NCBI GenBank assembly: GCA_902826225.1
Contig: CADEED010000001.1
Coordinates: 9,642 to 73,641, forward strand
Source: an uncultured Pseudomonadota bacterium
GTDB taxonomy: Bacteria > Pseudomonadota > Gammaproteobacteria > Steroidobacterales > Steroidobacteraceae
Length of the DNA stretch: 64,000 nt
Direction: 5' to 3'
Of the stretch, positions 6,352 to 57,921 are shown one piece after another. Below the pieces are notes generated by a model that was not told the DNA's origin, searched no databases, and was given only the letters and a program-made list of their open reading frames with translations. A program made the translations under genes and the position numbers. Positions within the stretch are counted from its first letter, which is position 1. Every line of letters starts with the position of its first letter.

Positions 6352-6418
6352 CGCCAACGAACTTCGACGGCACTCACCAGCCGCAACCGGGCCGCCGTCC
6401 GGCTCGTCGTCGACGTTC

Positions 6419-8828: not shown

Positions 8829-11800
8829 TCAGAAGTGTTTGCGAACGCCGACAGAGAGGAAGAGTTCGTCGACGTCATAGCTGACGATTTCCGCCTGGAC
8901 GATCCAAGAGTCGCCGACGCGCAGGCCCGCGCCGCCGCCGATGTAGATACCGACATCGTTCAGCTTCTCGTAATCGATGCCGGTGCTCGCGCTGTTGTCG
9001 ATCTGGACAGCGCCGAGCTTGAGGAGCGGGAAGAAACGCGCGGAGCGACCGCCCGACAGCGGCGACCACTCGACACCGACGCCCAGCATCTTGTAGTCGA
9101 TGGATCCCAGGTGTCCGACCGCCGGGTTGTCCGAGGAGATGCCGGCCTCGCCGCCATCGGCGTAGAAGGCTTCCGCGCTCCACTTCGACGACCATGAATA
9201 GCCGAACGACAGGCGCATGCCGGTGCTGCTCTTGTCGTCCACGACGTACCCGCCGTCGCGATTGCGCGGCTCGAGGCGGGAGAACCCGATGTCCGCGCCG
9301 ACGTAGAAGCCTTCGTTGATCGGAGCTTCCGCAGCACCGTCGGCCGCGTGCGCGCGCGCGCCGACGCCCGTGACGAGCAGGAGCACGAGGAACGGCGCCG
9401 CGCGCTGCGCGATTCGGCGCCTGACCAGTAGCGCCAGCATGAAGAACAATCCTCCGATCGTCAGCCCATCCACCGCGCCCGCACCGCGAATCGCAGTCTC
9501 CAGCCTGCCCGCCGCATCGAGCGAGTCCGGAATGCCGTCCTGATCGGAATCGCCGCGGCCTTCGCGCGCGTCCGTCACACCGTCGTTGTCACTATCGAGA
9601 TCCAGTGCGTCGGGCGCGCCATCACCATCCGTGTCCGGGCGCGCGAGCGGGTGGCCACCGGCCGCAGTGCCGTCCACCGTGTCGACAAGCCCGTCGTGGT
9701 CGGCATCGCTGCCGTCCTGCCGTCCGTCGTTGTTCGCATCGGTGCCGCCGCTCTCGACCACGTCGCTGGCGCCGTCGCCATCACTGTCGAGATCGCGGTG
9801 GTTGTCGATGCCGTCACCGTCGGTGTCCGGGAGGGGCAGCGCGCGGCCACCAAGCCCGGGCTCGAACTGATCCGACAGACCGTTGTGATTCGTGTCGACG
9901 AAGCCGTCGACGAGGCCGTTGCCGTTCGCATCCGTGCCGCCCGCTTCGACGATATCGGGCACACCGTCGCCGTCGCTGTCGAGATCGATGAGATTCGGCA
10001 TGCCATCACCATCGGTATCGTCGGAGCCGTCGGCATTGTTCGGGATGCCATCGTTGTCGAGATCCAGGTCGAGCGTATCGGCGACATCATCGCCGTCGCG
10101 GTCGACGAACGTGCCGAACACGAACGGTGCGGCGTCGACGACATCCCGGATGCCGTCCAGGTCGCTGTCCAGTCCCGCATCCACGCGGCCGTCGTTGTTC
10201 GCGTCGAAGGCCGTGCGCCCGGCCACGACGATGTCGCGGGTGCCGTCGTTGTTGGAGTCGAGGTCGCGGAAATCAGGAATGCCGTCGGCATCCGTATCGC
10301 GCGGACTCGCCGTGCGCACCTGGCCCGGATCCATCATCGAATCTCCGTCGGCGTCGAGGAGCCCCGCTTCGAGGACGTCCGCGAGCCCGTCGTCGTCGGA
10401 GTCGAGATCGCGCGCGTCGGGGATGCCGTCGCCATCCGTGTCCGTCAACGACACGGGTGTGCCTTCGAACGAATCGAGGATGCCGTCGTTGTCCGAATCC
10501 ACGTCGCGGAAGTCGGCGGCGCCGTCGCCGTCGGTGTCGCGCAGGGTCGCGTCGTCCGCGACGCCGTCTTGATCGAGGTCACCGCCGCCGGCCACATCCA
10601 CGTCGAACGCATCGTCGATGCCGTCGCCGTCCGTGTCGACGCCGGTCGCGTCACTCTCGAGACGGTCCGGCAGCGTATCGTTGTCGCTGTCGGTGTCCTG
10701 GTAGTCGGGCGTGCCGTCACCGTCGGTGTCGATCGGATTCGCGGGCTCACTGCCGGCTTCCAGCGCGTCGGGAATGCCGTCGCCGTCGCTGTCGCGATCG
10801 AGGTAGTCAGGAGTCCCGTCGTTGTCCGTGTCGACAGGGTGCACCGGATCCGCCCCCGCCTCGTCGGCGTCCGGAATGCCGTCATTGTCGCTGTCGAGGT
10901 CCGACGCGTCGGGGATTCCGTCGCCGTCGGTGTCCCCGCCCTCGAGCGCGTCCGGGATGCCGTCACCGTCGAAGTCCGACGGATCATTAGGATTGCCCGC
11001 TTCCGTGCCGTCGCTGATGCCGTCCCCGTCCGTGTCCGGATTGTTCCGGTCCGTCCCGAGAACATCTTCCTGGCCGTTTGTCAGGCCGTCGCCGTCGCTG
11101 TCGGTGGCGAGACAGACCGCGGAGAACGCGTTGGGCAAACAGGGATTGTTGTTGGCCGGGTCGGTCTGGTTAGGAACGCCGTCGTTGTCCGTGTCGACGA
11201 TCGACGATTCGCGCACGTTCGGGATGCCGTCACCGTCGGTGTCGACCGGGTTGCCACCGGGCGCCTCGGCGCCGTCGTTCGCGCCGTCACCATCGGTATC
11301 GGGATTGTTACGGCTCGTGCCGAGCGTGTCCTCCTGTGCATTGGTGAGACCGTCGCCATCGCTGTCGAACGCGAGACACGCGCCACTGTTGGCGTTCGGG
11401 ATGCACGGGTTGTTGTTGGCCGGGTCGAGCTGGTTGTTGACGCCGTCGGCATCGGAATCGACGAGCGTCGACTCGAGCGCATTGATGAGGCCGTCGCCGT
11501 CGGTGTCGACCGGGGCGTTCACGTTGCCGCCGACTTCGGCTGCATCGTTCACGCCGTCGCCGTCCGTGTCCGCGGCGTTGCGGTTGGTGCCCAGCGTGTT
11601 TTCCTGGCCATTCGTCAGACCGTCACCGTCGCTGTCCAGCGCCAGGCACGGTGTGCTGTTCGCGTTCGGAATGCAGGGATTGTTGTTGGCCGCGTCGTTC
11701 TGGTTGACGATGCCGTCGCCGTCGGAATCCGTGATGGCGGATTCGAGCAAGTTCGGAGTGCCGTCACCGTCGGTGTCGACCGGATTGCCGCCGGGGGCTT

Positions 11801-51559: not shown

Positions 51560-51605
51560 CTCCCTGCGGCGCCAGTCTGCTCGCGCCACACAATCAGGGG
51601 GAATC

Positions 51606-51830
51606 ATGGGTTTCAAATCCTCCGCCACGGGCGTCGTGGTCGCGCTGCTGACGGCGAGGGCAAGCTCGTGAAGCTCTCGAATACCGGCTGGACACAGGTG
51701 GAAGTGCCGCTCGCCACGCTCGCGTCGGAGGACGAGGTGGTCGACGGCCTGTGGGTGCAGAACGCGTCGGGGACCGACCTGCCCAAGTTCTACGTCACCG
51801 AGATCCGGTTGCAGCAGGCCGCAGCAGGCT
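51606..51830 (+). pseudogene. Broken gene: signal peptide joined out of frame to a C-terminal fragment
   Basis: ATG 51606, with GGGGGA just ahead, encodes MGFKSSATGVVVALLTA, a signal peptide, then stops at 51669-51671. From about 51650, another frame reads DGEGKLVKL, SNTGWTQVEVPLATLA and GLWVQNASGTDLPKFYVTEI, the end of a secreted beta-sandwich domain. An internal deletion seems to have removed the middle. The fragment runs into the 3' end of the convergent permease gene, so its own stop is lost or lies near 51830. The original function cannot be named. Confidence 0.6.
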
Positions 51831-53228
51831 GCGTACGCGCCCGTAGAGCAGGTAGACGATCAGGCCGATGAGGTTCCACAGCGCGAATCGGATCAGCGTC
51901 TTGTCGGGCAGGCTGAAGATCAGGTAGATGCAGCCCAGGATCGCGATCGAGCCGACCCACATCGGCTGCGGGCAGCGGAACACGCGCGGCAGATCCGGCG
52001 AGCGCCGCCGCAGGATCATCATGCAGGCCGCGACGGAGATGAACGCCAGCAGCGTGCCGGCATTCGCGAGCTCCGCGATCTCGTCGAGACGAAAAAATCC
52101 GGCCACCGCGGCTACCGCTACGCCCGTGATCGCGGTGATCAGCGCGGGCGTGCCGGTGCGCGGCGACACCGCCGAGAGCTTCTGCGGCAGCAGTCCGTCG
52201 CGCGACATCACGAAGAAGATGCGGCTCTGGCCGTACATCATCACGAGGATCACGGAGGGCAGCGCGATGAGCGCGGCGAGACCGATGAGCCGCGCGGCCA
52301 GCGGATGCTCGAGCGTGCGCATCACGAACGCGAGCGGCTCGGCGGAGTCGCCCACCTGTTCGTGACTCACCGAGCCGACCGCGGAGATCGCCACCAGCAT
52401 GTAGATGACCGTGCAGATGGCCATGGAGCCGATGATGCCGATCTTGAGATCGCGGCCCGGATTCTTCGCTTCTTCCGCGGACGTCGCGACGGCGTCGAAA
52501 CCGTAGAACGCGAAGAAGACGATCGCCGCCGCCGCCATGACGCCGCGCTTCACCCCGTCGGGGTCGACGTGGCTGCCGAATCCGTACGGCATGAAGGGCG
52601 CAAGCTTGCCGGCATCGAAAGACGGCAGTGCGATCAGCACGAACGCCGCGAGCGCCGTCATCTTGATGACGACGAGGATGATGTTGAGCGTCGCGCTCTC
52701 GCGCGTGCCGGCCACGAGCATGCCCGCGATGGTCAGCGCCACGAGCACGGCGGGCAGATTGACGATGCCGCCCGCGTGCGGGCCGGCGAGCAATGCGGGT
52801 GGGAGGTGCAATCCCGCCGACTGCAGCCAGCCGACGAGATACGCTGACCAGCCGACCGCAACGGTGCTGCAGGCGAGCGAATACTCGAGGATCAGGCTCC
52901 AGCCGACGATCCAGGCGACCGTCTCGCCGACGACGGTGTACGTATAGGTGTAGGCACTGCCGGAAGTCGGGATCAGCGTTGCGAGTTCGGTGTACGCGAG
53001 CGCCGCCGCGACGCAGACGATGCCGCACACGGCGAACGCGAGGATGACGGCGGGGCCCGCCCGATCCGCGCCGACGCCCGTCAGCGTGTAGATCCCGGTG
53101 CCGACGATCGACCCGACGCCCAAGGCCACGAGGTGCGGCCAGCTCAGCGTCTTGCGCAGCGACTTGTCGCCGGCACGGTCGCCGCTGAGCTGCGCGAGCG
53201 GCTTGCGCGGGCCTGACAGCCAGCCCAT
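51795..53228 (-). CDS. APC-family amino-acid permease
   Basis: A 477-residue inner-membrane transporter with 12 or more helices. The opening VALGVGSIVGTGIYTLTGVGA is the substrate-binding helix of cationic-amino-acid-type APC permeases; FFAFYGFDAVATSAEEAKNPGRD in helix 6 is also typical. ATG 53228 overlaps the stop of the DapA-family gene (TGATG), so it is translated with it. With the FAD oxidase and the GntR regulator it suggests uptake of an imino or D-amino acid such as hydroxyproline. The substrate is inferred from context. Confidence 0.88.
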   Translation of the reverse strand: MGWLSGPRKPLAQLSGDRAGDKSLRKTLSWPHLVALGVGSIVGTGIYTLTGVGADRAGPAVILAFAVCGIVCVAAALAYTELATLIPTSGSAYTYTYTVVGETVAWIVGWSLILEYSLACSTVAVGWSAYLVGWLQSAGLHLPPALLAGPHAGGIVNLPAVLVALTIAGMLVAGTRESATLNIILVVIKMTALAAFVLIALPSFDAGKLAPFMPYGFGSHVDPDGVKRGVMAAAAIVFFAFYGFDAVATSAEEAKNPGRDLKIGIIGSMAICTVIYMLVAISAVGSVSHEQVGDSAEPLAFVMRTLEHPLAARLIGLAALIALPSVILVMMYGQSRIFFVMSRDGLLPQKLSAVSPRTGTPALITAITGVAVAAVAGFFRLDEIAELANAGTLLAFISVAACMMILRRRSPDLPRVFRCPQPMWVGSIAILGCIYLIFSLPDKTLIRFALWNLIGLIVYLLYGRVRSLLRPAATGSR

Positions 53229-54139
53229 CAGGCTGCCGCCGCGGCGACGGGACGCGTCGCGCGACACTCCTCGACGCGCGCGATCACGTCGGCGCGTCGC
53301 GCGCCGGACAGCGGCAGGCGCGGCATGCGCACCCGTTCGGAACCGCGGCCCATCACCTGCTCCGCGAGCTTGATGGATTGCACGAGATCGTGATCGGCGT
53401 CGAGATGCAGCAGCGGCATGAACCAGCGGTAGATGCGGCGCGCCTCGGTCCAGTCGCCCCGCCGGGCGGCCGCGACCATCGCGACAGACTCGCGCGGGAA
53501 CGCGCTCGTGAGACCGGAAACCCAGCCGCTCGCACCGAGCATGAGGCCCTCGAGCGCGACGTCGTCGAGACCGGCGAGCATCGTGTAGCGCTCGCCGAAG
53601 CGGTTCGCGATGTCGGTGAAGCGGCGCGGATCCGGCGCGCTCTCCTTGATGGCGACGATGTTCTCGATCGGCTGCAGGCGCTCGAGCGTCCCGAGTTCGA
53701 TGGAGACCCGGTACGCGGGCGGATTGTTGTACAGCATGATCGGCAGCTTCGTCGCCTCGGCGACGGCGCGAAAGTGCGCCACCAGCTCGTCCGGCGTCGG
53801 CACGTAGACCATTGCCGGCAGGAGCATGAGCGCATCGACACCGATTTTTTCCGCGTCCCGCGCGTACTCGATGGCGCGGTCGGTGGTCAGCTCGGAGACG
53901 CCGGCAACCAGGGGCACGCGGCCGCCGACCGACTCGACCGCCGCGCGCAACGCCAGCCGCTTCTCCTCGGGACGCAGCGAATTGTTCTCACCCACGGTGC
54001 CGAGCAGGATGAGTCCGTCGACGCCGTCGGCCACGAGTGCGGTCAAGGTCTTGCGGCAAGCGGGCAGATCGAGCGAGAGATCGGCGGCAAACTGGGTGGT
54101 GGCGGCCGGGTACACGCCATGCCAGAGCGGCTGCGACAA
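53228..54139 (-). CDS. DapA-family lyase (candidate pyrroline-hydroxycarboxylate deaminase)
   Basis: A 303-residue TIM-barrel enzyme of the DHDPS/NAL superfamily. The carboxylate-binding GTVGENNSLRPEEK loop and the Tyr in PIMLYNNPPAYRV are present; the Schiff-base Lys is in NIVAIKESAPD (about 164). True DapA is less likely, because the gene sits between an amino-acid permease and a divergent FAD amine oxidase under one GntR-type site. This layout matches hydroxyproline catabolism, where a DapA homologue deaminates 1-pyrroline-4-hydroxy-2-carboxylate to alpha-ketoglutarate semialdehyde. TTG 54139 has AAGGAG 7 bases ahead. Confidence 0.82.
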   Translation of the reverse strand: MSQPLWHGVYPAATTQFAADLSLDLPACRKTLTALVADGVDGLILLGTVGENNSLRPEEKRLALRAAVESVGGRVPLVAGVSELTTDRAIEYARDAEKIGVDALMLLPAMVYVPTPDELVAHFRAVAEATKLPIMLYNNPPAYRVSIELGTLERLQPIENIVAIKESAPDPRRFTDIANRFGERYTMLAGLDDVALEGLMLGASGWVSGLTSAFPRESVAMVAAARRGDWTEARRIYRWFMPLLHLDADHDLVQSIKLAEQVMGRGSERVRMPRLPLSGARRADVIARVEECRATRPVAAAAA

Positions 54140-54155
54140 GAGCTTCTCCTTACAA

Positions 54156-54173
54156 ACGTATACGATATATTAT
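54156..54173. promoter_or_regulatory. GntR-type operator and -10 box between the DapA-like and oxidase genes
   Basis: ACGTATACGA at 54156-54165 has a perfect CGTATACG core. TATATT (54166-54171) or TATTAT (54168-54173) follows and lies 5-7 bases before ATG 54179, so the oxidase mRNA is probably leaderless. The same core is at 56158-56165, before the GntR-family gene. Confidence 0.6.
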
Positions 54174-54178
54174 CGGCA

Positions 54179-55432
54179 ATGAATCAGGGTGAGAAGGCTC
54201 CGGCCGATGCGATCGTCGTCGGTGGGGGCATCGTCGGACTCGCCTGCGCATTCGAACTGCAATCGCGCGGACTGGCAACCGTTCTCGTGGATCCAGACCG
54301 GGTCCGCCGCGGCGCCTCGTGGGGAAACGCCGGGCATCTCGCGGTCGAACAGGTGGAACCGCTCGCCTCGTTCGCGACCCTCGCGAGCGTGCCGCGGCGG
54401 CTGTTCTGGCGTGGTGGCGCGGTCGCCCTGCCCCCGCGGGACATCGGCACCTGGCTGCCGTTCGCGTGGCGGCTGTTCGGCGCCAGCGGGGCTCACCGAT
54501 TCACGGCCGGGAAGACGGCACTCAAGTCGCTCGTCGATCTGGCATTGCCCGCGTGGCGGCGGCTGTCCGCCAACGCCGGCGCGGCGCCGGCGATCGTCGA
54601 GGACGGACATTACGTCGTCTGGGAAACGCCGGGCGGCGCGCGCGCCGGCCGCGATTTCTGGCGCAACGCGGACACCGGCACCGCGTCCACGCGCGACGCG
54701 ACGCGCGCGGAAATCGGCGCGATCGCCGCCCTCATCGGCCGCGAGCCGGCGGGCGTTCTCCGGTTCGTCGGAACCGGACGGGTTCGCGATCCCGGCGCGC
54801 TCAACGACCGGATCGCCGCTGCATTCTCCGCGGCCGGCGGCCGGGAACAACTCGCGCAAGTTCGCAGACTGCGGGTCTCGAAGGGCCGCGCGTCCGTCGA
54901 TCTCGAGGATGGCGATCGCCTCGACGCGGATGTCGTCGTGATCGCGGCGGGGGTGGGCTCGGGCGGGCTGATGCACAGTCTCGGGGTGCGAACGCCGATC
55001 ATCGCGGAGCGCGGTTATCACCTCCAGGCGCCGGCGGCCGCGTGGCCGGACATGCCGCCCATCGTGTTCGAAGAGCGGTCGATGATCGTGAGCCGGTTCG
55101 AATCCGGGCTGCGCGCCGCGAGCTTCGTCGAGTTCGGCCGCGAGGCGGGCCCGCCGGATGCGCGAAAGTGGCGGCGATTGCAGTCACATGCGGCAGATCT
55201 GCGCCTGCCATTCGACACGGCGCCGCGCGAGTGGATGGGTGCGCGCCCCACGCTTCCGGACTATCTACCGGCGCTGGGCCGCAGCAGCCGTGCGGACAAC
55301 CTGATCTGCGCGTTCGGACACCAGCACCTGGGAATGACGCTGGCGGCCGCGAGCGCGGAGATCGTGGCGGCGACGGCGTTCGGCATCGTGCCGCCGCTGG
55401 ATCTGCGGCCCTTCTCGCCCGACCGGTTCTAG
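54179..55432 (+). CDS. FAD-dependent D-amino-acid/hydroxyproline oxidase-like protein (DadA family)
   Basis: A 417-residue flavoprotein of the DAO family. The FAD dinucleotide motif VVGGGIVGLACAFEL is at about 14-28, with the second strand VLVDPDRVRRGASWGNAGH. The C-terminal FAD segment is CAFGHQHLGMTLAAASAE. It would oxidise a D-amino or imino acid; with the DapA-like enzyme, D-hydroxyproline is the best guess, as in LhpBEF/HypO routes. There is no Shine-Dalgarno sequence before ATG 54179, but a -10 box is close. It is divergent from the permease/lyase unit. Confidence 0.82.
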   Translation: MNQGEKAPADAIVVGGGIVGLACAFELQSRGLATVLVDPDRVRRGASWGNAGHLAVEQVEPLASFATLASVPRRLFWRGGAVALPPRDIGTWLPFAWRLFGASGAHRFTAGKTALKSLVDLALPAWRRLSANAGAAPAIVEDGHYVVWETPGGARAGRDFWRNADTGTASTRDATRAEIGAIAALIGREPAGVLRFVGTGRVRDPGALNDRIAAAFSAAGGREQLAQVRRLRVSKGRASVDLEDGDRLDADVVVIAAGVGSGGLMHSLGVRTPIIAERGYHLQAPAAAWPDMPPIVFEERSMIVSRFESGLRAASFVEFGREAGPPDARKWRRLQSHAADLRLPFDTAPREWMGARPTLPDYLPALGRSSRADNLICAFGHQHLGMTLAAASAEIVAATAFGIVPPLDLRPFSPDRF

Positions 55433-55440
55433 CGGGTGTG

Positions 55441-56148
55441 TCAGGCGCGCTTGCGCGCGCGCTTCGCGGGCGCTTTCGCGGCGCGCGTGACGGGATGAAC
55501 GCGCAGGACTCTGCGCAGATCGCCGAGCGTATGCTCGAGGTGCGCCGTGATCAGCTTGCGCACGCGGGCATCGCGCCGCTTGCTCCACGCCTCGAGCATC
55601 TCATGGTGCTCGCCTTCCGCGCGCAGCACGCGTCCCTTGGGTTCGAGATGCTTGCGCACGTAGCGATCCGCGAGGATGTGCAGGCGCGCCACGATGTCGG
55701 TGGTCAGGCGCATCCCGCAAGGCTGGACGAGCGCGAGATGAAACGCGCGATTCGCCGCCCCGACCGTCGGCTTGTGCGCCACCGCCTCGCTGTCGAAGTG
55801 CGCCAGCGCGAGCCGCGCCCGTTCGTGGTCGACGTCGGTCGCCTTCAGTGAAGCCAGCGCGGCGGCATCCGGCTCGATCTTCAGGCGCAACGCGTAGACC
55901 TCCTCCGCTTCCTCCGGCGACATCGGCCGCACGAAGAACCCGCGATTCGGATGCGAGACGACAAGCCCGTCTTGTTCGAGGCGGGCCAGGGCTTCGCGCA
56001 GCGGGATCTTGCTGACGCGCAGTTCGGCCGCGAGCGCGTCCTGCCGGATCGGCAGATCGGCCTCGATCGTTCCCGACAGGATGAAGTCGCGCAGGACGTC
56101 GACGAGCCGGTCGGACAGGGTCCGGATCTCGAGATGGATGGGACGCAC
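55441..56148 (-). CDS. GntR-family (FCD) regulator
   Basis: A 235-residue repressor. The winged helix (about 8-72) includes IRQDALAAELRVSKIPLREALARLEQDGLV. The FCD domain (about 85-215) has the metal/ligand residues in YALRLKIEPDAAAL, NRAFHLALVQPCG and EHHEMLEAW. The basic tail (RAAKAPAKRARKRA) is unusual and may add DNA contacts. GTG 56148 is the start; a perfect palindrome TCGTATACGA lies 8 bases upstream, and a near copy lies in the oxidase/lyase promoter, so it probably regulates itself and that divergent unit. Its stop faces the oxidase gene, 8 bases away. Confidence 0.88.
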   Translation of the reverse strand: MRPIHLEIRTLSDRLVDVLRDFILSGTIEADLPIRQDALAAELRVSKIPLREALARLEQDGLVVSHPNRGFFVRPMSPEEAEEVYALRLKIEPDAAALASLKATDVDHERARLALAHFDSEAVAHKPTVGAANRAFHLALVQPCGMRLTTDIVARLHILADRYVRKHLEPKGRVLRAEGEHHEMLEAWSKRRDARVRKLITAHLEHTLGDLRRVLRVHPVTRAAKAPAKRARKRA

Positions 56149-56155
56149 GAAATCG

Positions 56156-56166
56156 ATCGTATACGA
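56156..56166 (-). promoter_or_regulatory. GntR autoregulatory palindrome overlapping its -10 box
   Basis: TCGTATACGA at 56157-56166 is a perfect 10-bp palindrome. On the minus strand TACGAT (56161-56156) can act as -10, 7 bases before GTG 56148, which again suggests a leaderless mRNA. Binding would block the promoter. Confidence 0.6.
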
Positions 56167-56189
56167 AGGCCCCGACCGGGAAGAAGGAA

Positions 56190-57704
56190 TCAGCGCGGCG
56201 GTTTTTGCGCCTGCTCGAACGCGTGACCGAGCGCAAGCAAGGTCTGCTCGTCCCAGGCCTTGCCGAAGAACGAGAGTCCCACGGGCAGACCCGCGGCCTC
56301 GCCCATCGGCACCGTGAGGTGCGGATACCCGGCGACGGCGGCCAGGCTCGACGACGAGCCCACGTCGCGATCGCCATTGACCAGGTCGATCATCCACGCG
56401 GGCCCGGCGGTGGGCGCGATCAAGGCGACGACCTTGTGTTCGGCGAGCAAGCGGTCGATCCCGCCGCGCGCGAGCGCGCGCGCTTTCGGCAGGGACCACG
56501 TGTATGGCGCGGCGTCGAGACCCGCCGCGGACTCGGCCTGTTCGAAGATCTCCTGCCCGAAGTGCGCGAGCTCGCGCGGCTCCGCGGCGTTGAACGCGAT
56601 GAGTTGCTCGAGCGTGCGCGCCTGCACCTCGGGAGGTGTCGTCGCGAGATAGGCATTCAGCGCCGGCTTGAACTCCGCCAGCAGCACGTTCAACTCGACT
56701 TCGTAGAGATCGGCGAAGTCGAACTCGTTCACGTCGACGAGCTCCGCGCCCTGCGCGCGCAGCACCGCCAGCGCGGACTCGAACACCGCGTCGGTCGAGC
56801 CGCGGAATCCCTTGATGAAGCGTGCCACGCCGAGCCGTGCGCCTTTCAATGCATCGGGGCGCAACGCGTCCGTGTAGTTTGATGGCGCGCCCTCGCGCGT
56901 GACCATGCCGCCGAGCAGGATCGCCGCGTCGCGCACGCTCGCCGTCATCGGGCCGGCCGTGTCCTGCGAGGGGCTTATCGGCACGATGCCATCCTGGGAC
57001 ACCAGTCCGACCGTCGGCTTGAGACCGACCACGCCGTTGATCGAAGCCGGGCACACGATGGAACCATCCGTCTCGGTGCCGACCGCGAGCGGCGCCATGT
57101 GCGCCGCGATGGCGGTCGCGGAGCCGGAGCTCGAGCCGCAGGCGCTGCGGCGCGGATCGTGCGGATTGACCGCGAGGCCACCCACCGCGCTCCAGCCGCT
57201 CGACGACTCGAACGAGCGGAAATTGGCCCACTCGGAGAGGTTTGCCTTGGCGATCACGATGGCGCCCGCCTCGCGCAGTTTCGCGACGAGCGGCGCGTCC
57301 TGCTCGCGCAGGTTCCGCTCGAGCGCGAGCGACCCGGCGGTCGTCACCCACCCGGCGGCGTCGATGTTGTCCTTCAGGATGACCGGGATGCCATGCAGCG
57401 GGCCGCGCAGGCGCGCGACGCGGCGGGCGGCATCCCGTTCGCGTGCCTCATCGAGCGCGCGCGGATTCACCGCGATGACGGCGCGCAACTCGCCGTTGCA
57501 CTCGGCGATGCGCGCCAGGTAGGCGCGCACCAGTGCAACGGACGTCGTGCGATTGGAGTCGAGCGCGGCGCGCAGGTCGTCGACGGTCGCGGTGGCGAGA
57601 TCGAGACTGCCGGCGCGGACTTTCTTCGCGCAGGACCACGCCGGCGACCCGAGCGAGACGGCGGCGAGCGCCGCGAGTATCGATGCGAGTTGGGCGGGCT
57701 TCAT
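56190..57704 (-). CDS. Secreted amidase (amidase-signature family)
   Basis: A 504-residue exported hydrolase. The signal peptide ends near SPAWS. The Ser-cisSer-Lys triad is complete: Lys in IPVILKDNIDAAG (about 108), cis-Ser in SACGSSSGSATAIA (about 188) and nucleophile Ser in GTETDGSIVCPAS (about 212). Such enzymes cut amide bonds of peptides, nitrile-derived amides or amidated sugars; the substrate is unknown. ATG 57704 is set by the signal peptide. The GntR-family gene follows 41 bases downstream on the same strand, so they may be co-transcribed. Confidence 0.9.
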   Translation of the reverse strand: MKPAQLASILAALAAVSLGSPAWSCAKKVRAGSLDLATATVDDLRAALDSNRTTSVALVRAYLARIAECNGELRAVIAVNPRALDEARERDAARRVARLRGPLHGIPVILKDNIDAAGWVTTAGSLALERNLREQDAPLVAKLREAGAIVIAKANLSEWANFRSFESSSGWSAVGGLAVNPHDPRRSACGSSSGSATAIAAHMAPLAVGTETDGSIVCPASINGVVGLKPTVGLVSQDGIVPISPSQDTAGPMTASVRDAAILLGGMVTREGAPSNYTDALRPDALKGARLGVARFIKGFRGSTDAVFESALAVLRAQGAELVDVNEFDFADLYEVELNVLLAEFKPALNAYLATTPPEVQARTLEQLIAFNAAEPRELAHFGQEIFEQAESAAGLDAAPYTWSLPKARALARGGIDRLLAEHKVVALIAPTAGPAWMIDLVNGDRDVGSSSSLAAVAGYPHLTVPMGEAAGLPVGLSFFGKAWDEQTLLALGHAFEQAQKPPR

Positions 57705-57741: not shown

Positions 57742-57921
57742 TCAGGCGGGTGCGGCGAGCGCCCCGCGCGGCATCGCCGGGCCGCGCGGGAACATGAGCG
57801 ACAGCAGCACGACGGCGCCGCCGATCGTCGCGGCGCTGATGTACATCCACGCATACCTGCCGAAGCGGTCGAACACCCAGCCGCCCGCGAGCGGGCCTAT
57901 CGCCATGCCGAGGGCAGTGTC
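57742..57921 (-). pseudogene. C-terminal remnant of an MFS transporter
   Basis: The frame reads DTALGMAIGPLAGGWVFDRF, then GRYAWMYISAATIGGAVVLL, ending AAPA before TGA at 57744-57742. This is the typical last-two-helix segment of a major-facilitator transporter. The frame runs into the 3' end of the sensor kinase gene in another phase, so the first ten or so helices are missing. A deletion joined it to the kinase gene. ATG 57906 could start a 54-residue peptide, but this is probably not functional. Confidence 0.7.

Follow-up and report, generated by a model that had tools for sequence, protein, structure and literature searches.

A putative HypR-type regulon for 4-hydroxy-L-proline use in an uncultured Pseudomonadota bacterium, and the placement of its operator in other genomes

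We analysed a 64,000-nucleotide stretch of DNA (hereafter the window; C1:9642-73641) from the genome of an uncultured Pseudomonadota bacterium, an assembly of 3.99 Mb in 194 contigs. Four neighbouring genes and two palindromic sites of the window (Table 1) very probably constitute, as judged from sequence comparison, a HypR-type regulon for the use of 4-hydroxy-L-proline. Genes were called by a home-made method based on third-position GC content, and some of the starts are wrong. Operator 1 was located between the start codons of the divergent lyase and oxidase genes, and the core of operator 2 was located 10-17 bases 5' of the probable start of the regulator gene. The ATG of the permease gene overlaps the stop codon of the lyase gene (TGATG), so the two genes should share one transcript; the permease had no operator of its own. 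Several traits of a HypR regulon were present: a GntR-family regulator with an FCD domain (one of five FCD matches in the genome) is encoded beside the catabolic genes, the oxidase gene and that of the putative DHDPS-family (dihydrodipicolinate synthase) deaminase flank operator 1, and a shared palindrome, whose two copies were the top-ranked sites of the window, precedes both the catabolic genes and the regulator gene.

Table 1. Genes and operators of the locus (window coordinates).
Feature	Position	Strand	Remarks
APC-family amino acid permease	51795..53228	-	Pfam AA_permease_2, 1.3e-56
DHDPS-family lyase	53228..54139	-	PF00701, 2.1e-53; TTG start at 54139, AAGGAG just upstream
Operator 1	54154..54167		core CGTATACG at 54157-54164; divergent lyase/oxidase promoter; model score 26.7
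FAD (flavin adenine dinucleotide)-dependent D-amino-acid oxidase/dehydrogenase	54179..55432	+	PF01266 DAO, 1.2e-42; ATG start at 54179
GntR/FCD regulator (HypR-like)	55441..56148	-	PF00392 and PF07729; probable GTG start at 56148
Operator 2	56155..56168		core CGTATACG at 56158-56165; just 5' of the regulator gene; model score 15.1

Gene families, gene neighbourhoods in foreign genomes, and the conservation and placement of the operator were computed. Among plasmid records, the window lyase had 1655 matches, with up to 79% identity, the best 30 of which came from Sphingomonas, Niveispirillum and Rhizobium. One Sphingomonas plasmid carried, in a row, the lyase, an annotated 4-hydroxyproline epimerase, a permease, a GntR regulator, an FAD oxidase and an Xaa-Pro peptidase; a second Sphingomonas plasmid exhibited the same row minus the Xaa-Pro peptidase, and a Niveispirillum plasmid held a cluster of lyase, epimerase, oxidase and Xaa-Pro peptidase. 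The window lyase was 73-79% identical to the lyases adjoining annotated 4-hydroxyproline epimerases, the permease was 73-78% identical to those of the two epimerase-holding Sphingomonas clusters, and the oxidase was 49-52% identical to those of the Sphingomonas and Niveispirillum clusters. The regulator was 56% identical to the regulators of the two Sphingomonas clusters and 71% identical to that of Amphiplicatus, and it matched the regulator of the Shewanella fodinae hyp cluster with 182 bits. Two Rhizobium records held a lyase (74% identity) near an Xaa-Pro peptidase and a beta-L-arabinofuranosidase, with no epimerase nearby and with another GntR regulator (30% identical to that of the window in the one record measured).

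Lyase loci were also collected by a contig scan; the best 80 of its 577 loci, with lyases 64-79% identical to that of the window, formed our sample. An epimerase was present in 61 of these loci, a GntR relative in 59 (weak ones included), an oxidase in 48 and a prolidase in 40. Genes of the DUF885 family (PF05960), whose products are possibly peptidases for hydroxyproline peptides, were common neighbours as well (31 in the 80 loci, L081-L160). It is because of these neighbouring genes that the lyase clade is assigned to hydroxyproline. The window lyase is probably a pyrroline-4-hydroxy-2-carboxylate deaminase (the HypD step) and the window oxidase probably a cis-4-hydroxy-D-proline oxidase (the HypO step). 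The initial annotation had joined lyase, oxidase, permease and regulator in a single GntR regulon, a proposal to which the neighbourhoods and the operator placement lend comparative support. Its choice of hydroxyproline as the substrate is likewise supported, as relatives of the lyase often stand beside a 4-hydroxyproline epimerase, an FAD oxidase, a GntR regulator and a permease.

The 8-mer CGTATACG, which the same annotation had placed at the two core positions, was indeed found there and at no other place in the window. Taken alone, it was only mildly unusual: a shuffled window is expected to hold 0.28 copies, 4 of 100 shuffles held two or more, and 28 copies were counted in the 3.99-Mb genome (5 for the reversed control), most of them within predicted reading frames. 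The bare count was too weak to serve as evidence and was dropped. We used instead a 22-column operator model trained on 50 lyase-upstream sites of other genomes, with the window excluded; nine of the 59 available sites were kept out of training, as they came from loci without a window-type regulator or without an epimerase. This outside-trained model ranked operators 1 and 2 first and second in the window, followed by a place with a score of 9.3, although operator 2 fell slightly under the lowest training score (16.2). In random sequence made from the base-triplet statistics of the window, 0.04 places scoring at least 15 are expected per 64 kb, and no place scoring at least 26 occurred in 20 Mb. 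The wider operator, on the basis of these scores, is far more specific than the 8-mer.

The symmetric consensus core of the operator is TATCGTATACGATA, which was matched with up to three mismatches at 18 places of the genome (5 for the reversed control) and with up to two mismatches at operator 1 only. Places on C10, C16 and C97 fit TNGTATACNA; those on C10 and C97 were rejected as operators since they lie inside reading frames, as was a place on C23 (score 13.7), inside a frame of 947 residues.

To count operators upstream of the lyase, we used 79 of the 80 loci, L095 being dropped because only 23 bases precede its match. In 59 of these 79 loci, the 200 bp upstream of the lyase contained GTATAC, mostly 40-60 bases ahead of the matched start; of the other genes in these loci, used as controls, 27 of 781 had it (Fisher test, 2e-52). 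Its presence followed the type of regulator, with 43 out of the 49 loci having a window-type regulator (at least 80 bits) and 16 out of the 30 others. Model-based counts for the lyase are circular, the model having been trained on lyase sites, whereas the GTATAC counts and those for GH127 genes and TonB receptors are not. With a score threshold of 14, chosen after the training scores had been seen, the operator was found in the other loci before 29 of 48 oxidase, 7 of 40 prolidase, 7 of 50 regulator, 12 of 16 TonB receptor, 4 of 62 epimerase and none of 25 permease genes, as well as before 4 of the 28 DUF885 genes with a visible 5' end.

Among the bacterium itself and 58 relatives, TATCGTATACGATA occurred with up to two mismatches in 45 of the 59 genomes, loose matches being common; the matches listed for these genomes included one exact copy, in the oxidase/lyase promoter of relative G020. 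Model scans of genomes covered fetched stretches. Strong sites (25 to 35) were found at the oxidase/lyase locus in relatives G012, G013, G020 and G034, and relatives G003, G005 and G015 had no strong site in the loci fetched (best scores 2 to 9).

The initial annotation had described the epimerase and the semialdehyde dehydrogenase as missing, which is correct for the window; elsewhere in the genome, candidates were found on C46 and C29. The sole match of the genome to the proline racemase family, C46:26676-27587 (PF05544, 3e-95), has the catalytic pair Cys88/Cys233, and its top NCBIfam families are 4-hydroxyproline epimerases. Divergent from it, we observed the remnant of a second D-amino-acid oxidase gene (L030, about 11399-11611, minus strand), in which about 70 codons match residues 27-92 and 135-162 of the oxidase of relative G003 in two overlapping alignments, which suggests an internal loss; the rest of the gene was not found at that place. 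In G003 (L048), a member of the same genus, the oxidase frame is uninterrupted and stands divergent from an epimerase gene, whose product is 69% identical to that of our genome. These observations suggest that an acquired locus replaced a decaying native hydroxyproline locus.

Eleven aldehyde dehydrogenase matches were found in the genome. The one on C29 was 53% identical to the dehydrogenase of the Shewanella fodinae cluster (the next, 36%), and its best family was alpha-ketoglutaric semialdehyde dehydrogenase; it was the only one scanned against NCBIfam, the others being compared by blastp. The candidate lies in a sugar-acid gene set (L161), together with a dihydroxy-acid-dehydratase-family gene and a fructuronate-reductase-type dehydrogenase gene; the set further holds a sugar transporter gene and a regulator gene of LacI type, both named by eye.

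In the lyase tree, the window lyase fell in a clade of 20 rows (100/98) with Sphingomonadales as the nearest rows among those listed. Five of the six lyases from its own family branched elsewhere, the sixth (L046) being a misfit row, and the lyases of own-family relatives grouped with gammaproteobacterial metagenome-assembled genomes. In the regulator tree, where rows L123 and L129 are short of sequence, the window regulator was sister to that of Amphiplicatus (100/99). The locus was likely acquired laterally from an alphaproteobacterium, provided that the host does not itself belong to this class. Base composition, taken as a sign of transfer, showed no contrast at the locus. Gene debris was observed at both edges of the locus, namely a carbohydrate-binding-like fragment (51563-51850, plus strand) and the apparent 3' end of a transporter gene (57742-57921, minus strand), both named by eye; this debris is compatible with an inserted segment.

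Beyond the window, the site at C141:6275 (L067) obtained a score of 18.4, the second best among the 28 genome copies of CGTATACG; in random sequence, 4 Mb should yield 0.4 scores of at least 18.3. The site lies between two genes: about 20 bases separate it from the start of a GH127 gene, and 8 bases from that of a gene for a metallo-beta-lactamase-fold protein. The GH127 gene product exhibits the domains PF07944 (3.8e-62), PF20736 and PF20737 (catalytic and middle), its cysteine motifs align with those of 6ex6 and 4qjy, and its best PDB matches were 6ex6, 4qjy and 3wkw-type chains. In the 80 loci, 10 out of 13 GH127-domain genes within 10 kb of the lyase were preceded by an operator of at least 14, versus 20 out of 515 control genes (Fisher test, 2e-11); four of the original 17 genes were dropped because their 5' end was not visible. 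The ten genes with a site span Sphingomonadaceae, Parvularculaceae, Caulobacteraceae and Azospirillaceae, and the three without belong to two Rhizobium loci and one Niveispirillum locus. In Amphiplicatus, the operator stands between the arabinofuranosidase gene and a dehydrogenase gene; the best PDB matches of this enzyme were 5opj, which we take to be a GH146 member, and 8k7x.

Twenty hand-picked proteins encoded downstream of sites were scanned with Pfam. Beyond the types described above, ten of them comprised a GH2 beta-galactosidase type, two sortilin/BNR proteins, an Ldh_2 protein, three DUF885 proteins, an aldehyde dehydrogenase, a TonB receptor and one without a family; a DPP-IV-type S9 peptidase was also found among the scanned proteins. 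In four Rhizobium loci (L065, L066, L098 and L108), the lyase was observed near a beta-L-arabinofuranosidase, with both the operator and a nearby epimerase absent.

Two results count against the link on C141: in the fetched stretches, the GH127 genes of hyp-cluster relatives G012 (two) and G020 (one) had no site (best score 0.0), and neither did the other two GH127 genes of our genome (C3 and C53). Two further places were rejected as GH127 operators, one in G031 (18.1) inside the matched gene and one in G008 (14.7) about 860 bases 5' of the domain match; both genomes were without an oxidase match. Overall, an operator before beta-L-arabinofuranosidase genes is well supported in Alphaproteobacteria and suggestive in our genome, and this placement, which goes beyond the published picture as far as our literature search covered it, suggests a regulon serving the use of plant hydroxyproline-rich glycoproteins.

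As regards known systems, a hyp locus on pSymB of Sinorhizobium meliloti is reported to have been described by White et al. in 2012 (cited in PMC5343134). Locus L164 of our collection is presumably this one, an identification backed by its oxidase and epimerase matches. Like our genome, it holds a relative of the oxidase (33% identical to that of the window) and a relative of the epimerase; its regulator match to the window regulator spans 59 residues only. GTATAC was found in L164 at 4626 and 4669, before the dehydrogenase frame (scores of 8.8 and 5.2), and at 6414, just past it (16.4), and S. meliloti may have an operator of the same type. An ABC transporter is described for S. meliloti (PMC5343134) where the window has an APC permease.

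HypR regulons have already been predicted for Proteobacteria (Leyn et al. 2016, PMC5343134). HypR is described there as a repressor of the GntR family that controls its own gene in 32 of 46 genomes; epimerase, oxidase, deaminase and semialdehyde dehydrogenase form the core of its regulon, to which Alteromonadales add upstream genes for collagenases, proline peptidases and a TonB receptor (PMC5343134). In contrast to the regulons described in that paper, the epimerase gene of our genome lies outside the operon and has no site in front of it, and genes for GH127-type beta-L-arabinofuranosidases are preceded by the operator as well; the main text of the paper contains "glycosid" 0 times and "arabino" once, in the name of a compound of aromatic synthesis (PMC5343134). 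The enzymes of the pathway have been described as members of the 4HypE, DAAO, DHDPS and aldehyde dehydrogenase superfamilies (PMC4113996). The HypR of Streptomyces coelicolor resembles the window regulator in being a GntR/FCD autorepressor of hydroxyproline genes, there together with a collagenase gene, and in having a site at its own gene, which in S. coelicolor spans the -10 region of the promoter; its operator, CTNTGC(A/C)ATGTCAC, and its three-subunit dehydrogenase are unlike those considered here (PMC6608401). HypBA1-type beta-L-arabinofuranosidases of Bifidobacterium and Xanthomonas (3wkw, 4qjy, 6ex6), to which the C141 enzyme is related, act on arabinosyl-hydroxyproline (PMC6085000). 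The Xanthomonas enzyme XeHypBA1 releases arabinose from this compound (PMC6085000), so that free hydroxyproline would remain. The related Xanthomonas hypBA2-hypAA operon is under HrpX (PMC6085000), in contrast to the control by a hydroxyproline regulator proposed here. In a literature search combining hydroxyproline with arabinofuranosidase, GH127, regulator or TonB, which left most subscription journals outside, hydroxyproline-regulated beta-L-arabinofuranosidases were not recognised among the papers listed.

Other explanations of the locus were considered. Were the palindromes due to chance, or the property of an unrelated GntR regulator, the 28 genome copies of the 8-mer and the 4 in 100 shuffles holding two would be easily understood; however, the placement of the site upstream of the lyase is conserved in dozens of genomes and tracks the type of regulator, and we regard this explanation as highly improbable. 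We give no more credit to the view that the lyase is a dihydrodipicolinate synthase of lysine synthesis in a chance neighbourhood. Its best NCBIfam family is indeed dapA, but the window gene reaches 176 bits where DapA requires 206, a cut-off that a gene on C12 passes with 300 bits, and its close relatives adjoin 4-hydroxyproline epimerases. A lysine DapA was rejected on these grounds, and a lyase acting in lysine synthesis only, which the initial annotation had named as the outcome that would speak against it, is unlikely given the separate DapA on C12.

A different substrate is somewhat easier to envisage, yet still unlikely. It could be another cyclic or D-amino acid, or the lyase could be a 2-keto-3-deoxypentonate dehydratase making ketoglutarate semialdehyde, with arabinose as the main theme. 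DAO and DHDPS are both broad families, the lyase of the two Rhizobium records has a beta-L-arabinofuranosidase and sugar transporters as neighbours but no epimerase close by, and C29 combines a dehydratase of sugar-acid type with the candidate semialdehyde dehydrogenase. However, a D-amino-acid oxidase shares the promoter region of the lyase, an amino acid permease follows the lyase, and the commonest enzyme partners among those sought were the epimerase (61/80), the oxidase (48/80) and the prolidase (40/80).

The assignment to a HypR-type hydroxyproline regulon has its own difficulties, and several results weigh against it. GTATAC was absent upstream of the lyase in 20 of the 79 loci, 10 of which hold an epimerase. 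The relatives of the oxidase within the bacterium's own family are just 31-44% identical, and the DHDPS protein of S. meliloti L164 is just 25% identical to the window lyase. The C46 epimerase falls under the curated cut-offs (391 of 450 and 381 of 442 bits), as does the C29 dehydrogenase (500 of 770 bits). The aldehyde dehydrogenases of our genome include no close relative of the type present in the Amphiplicatus, Gluconobacter and Blastomonas loci (best local identity 27-38%, 70-83 bits). The motif scan, from which the initial annotation had hoped to recover the missing genes, failed for the epimerase, as no operator was found at C46 (best model score nearby 3.3). Finally, a sigma-70 consensus scan of 53150-56300 gave no promoter, and hence none overlapping the operators; the proposed placement of one site in the divergent lyase/oxidase promoter and of the other just before the regulator gene was retained, and the scan lent no support to the "-10 box" attributed to the latter.

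For the HypR-type regulon, we infer binding, repression, the ligand and each reaction from sequence, as follows. Without inducer, a dimer of the GntR/FCD regulator would sit on TATCGTATACGATA-like palindromes and repress the lyase/oxidase promoter as well as its own, and would be released when hydroxyproline or an intermediate of the pathway is present. The permease would import hydroxyproline, which the putative epimerase, encoded outside the locus on C46, would convert to cis-4-hydroxy-D-proline. The FAD oxidase would then yield pyrroline-4-hydroxy-2-carboxylate, which the DHDPS-family lyase would deaminate to ketoglutarate semialdehyde, and a dehydrogenase, for which that of the C29 sugar-acid gene set is the candidate, would produce 2-oxoglutarate. 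More tentatively, the regulator may also control the GH127 beta-L-arabinofuranosidase of C141, in which case the source of hydroxyproline could be the arabinosylated hydroxyproline of plant wall proteins.

A broader proposal, which we consider evenly balanced between true and false, is that a HypR-type regulator commands the scavenging of plant hydroxyproline-rich glycoproteins, from TonB receptor, peptidases and beta-L-arabinofuranosidase to import and catabolism, in several alphaproteobacterial families and, via lateral acquisition, in the present bacterium. If so, the arabinose and hydroxyproline routes would meet at ketoglutarate semialdehyde, and this shared intermediate would explain why the candidate dehydrogenase belongs to a sugar-acid gene set. 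The TATCGTATACGATA signature aids in recognising hydroxyproline genes in Proteobacteria, and through it glycosidases and outer-membrane receptors whose substrates are unknown may be linked to extensin-like glycoproteins of the plant wall. If this link is true, a single repressor and a single inducer would allow a direct test of the substrates predicted for these enzymes. The locus also illustrates how genes that seem to be "missing" from a pathway can be recovered from the remainder of a genome.

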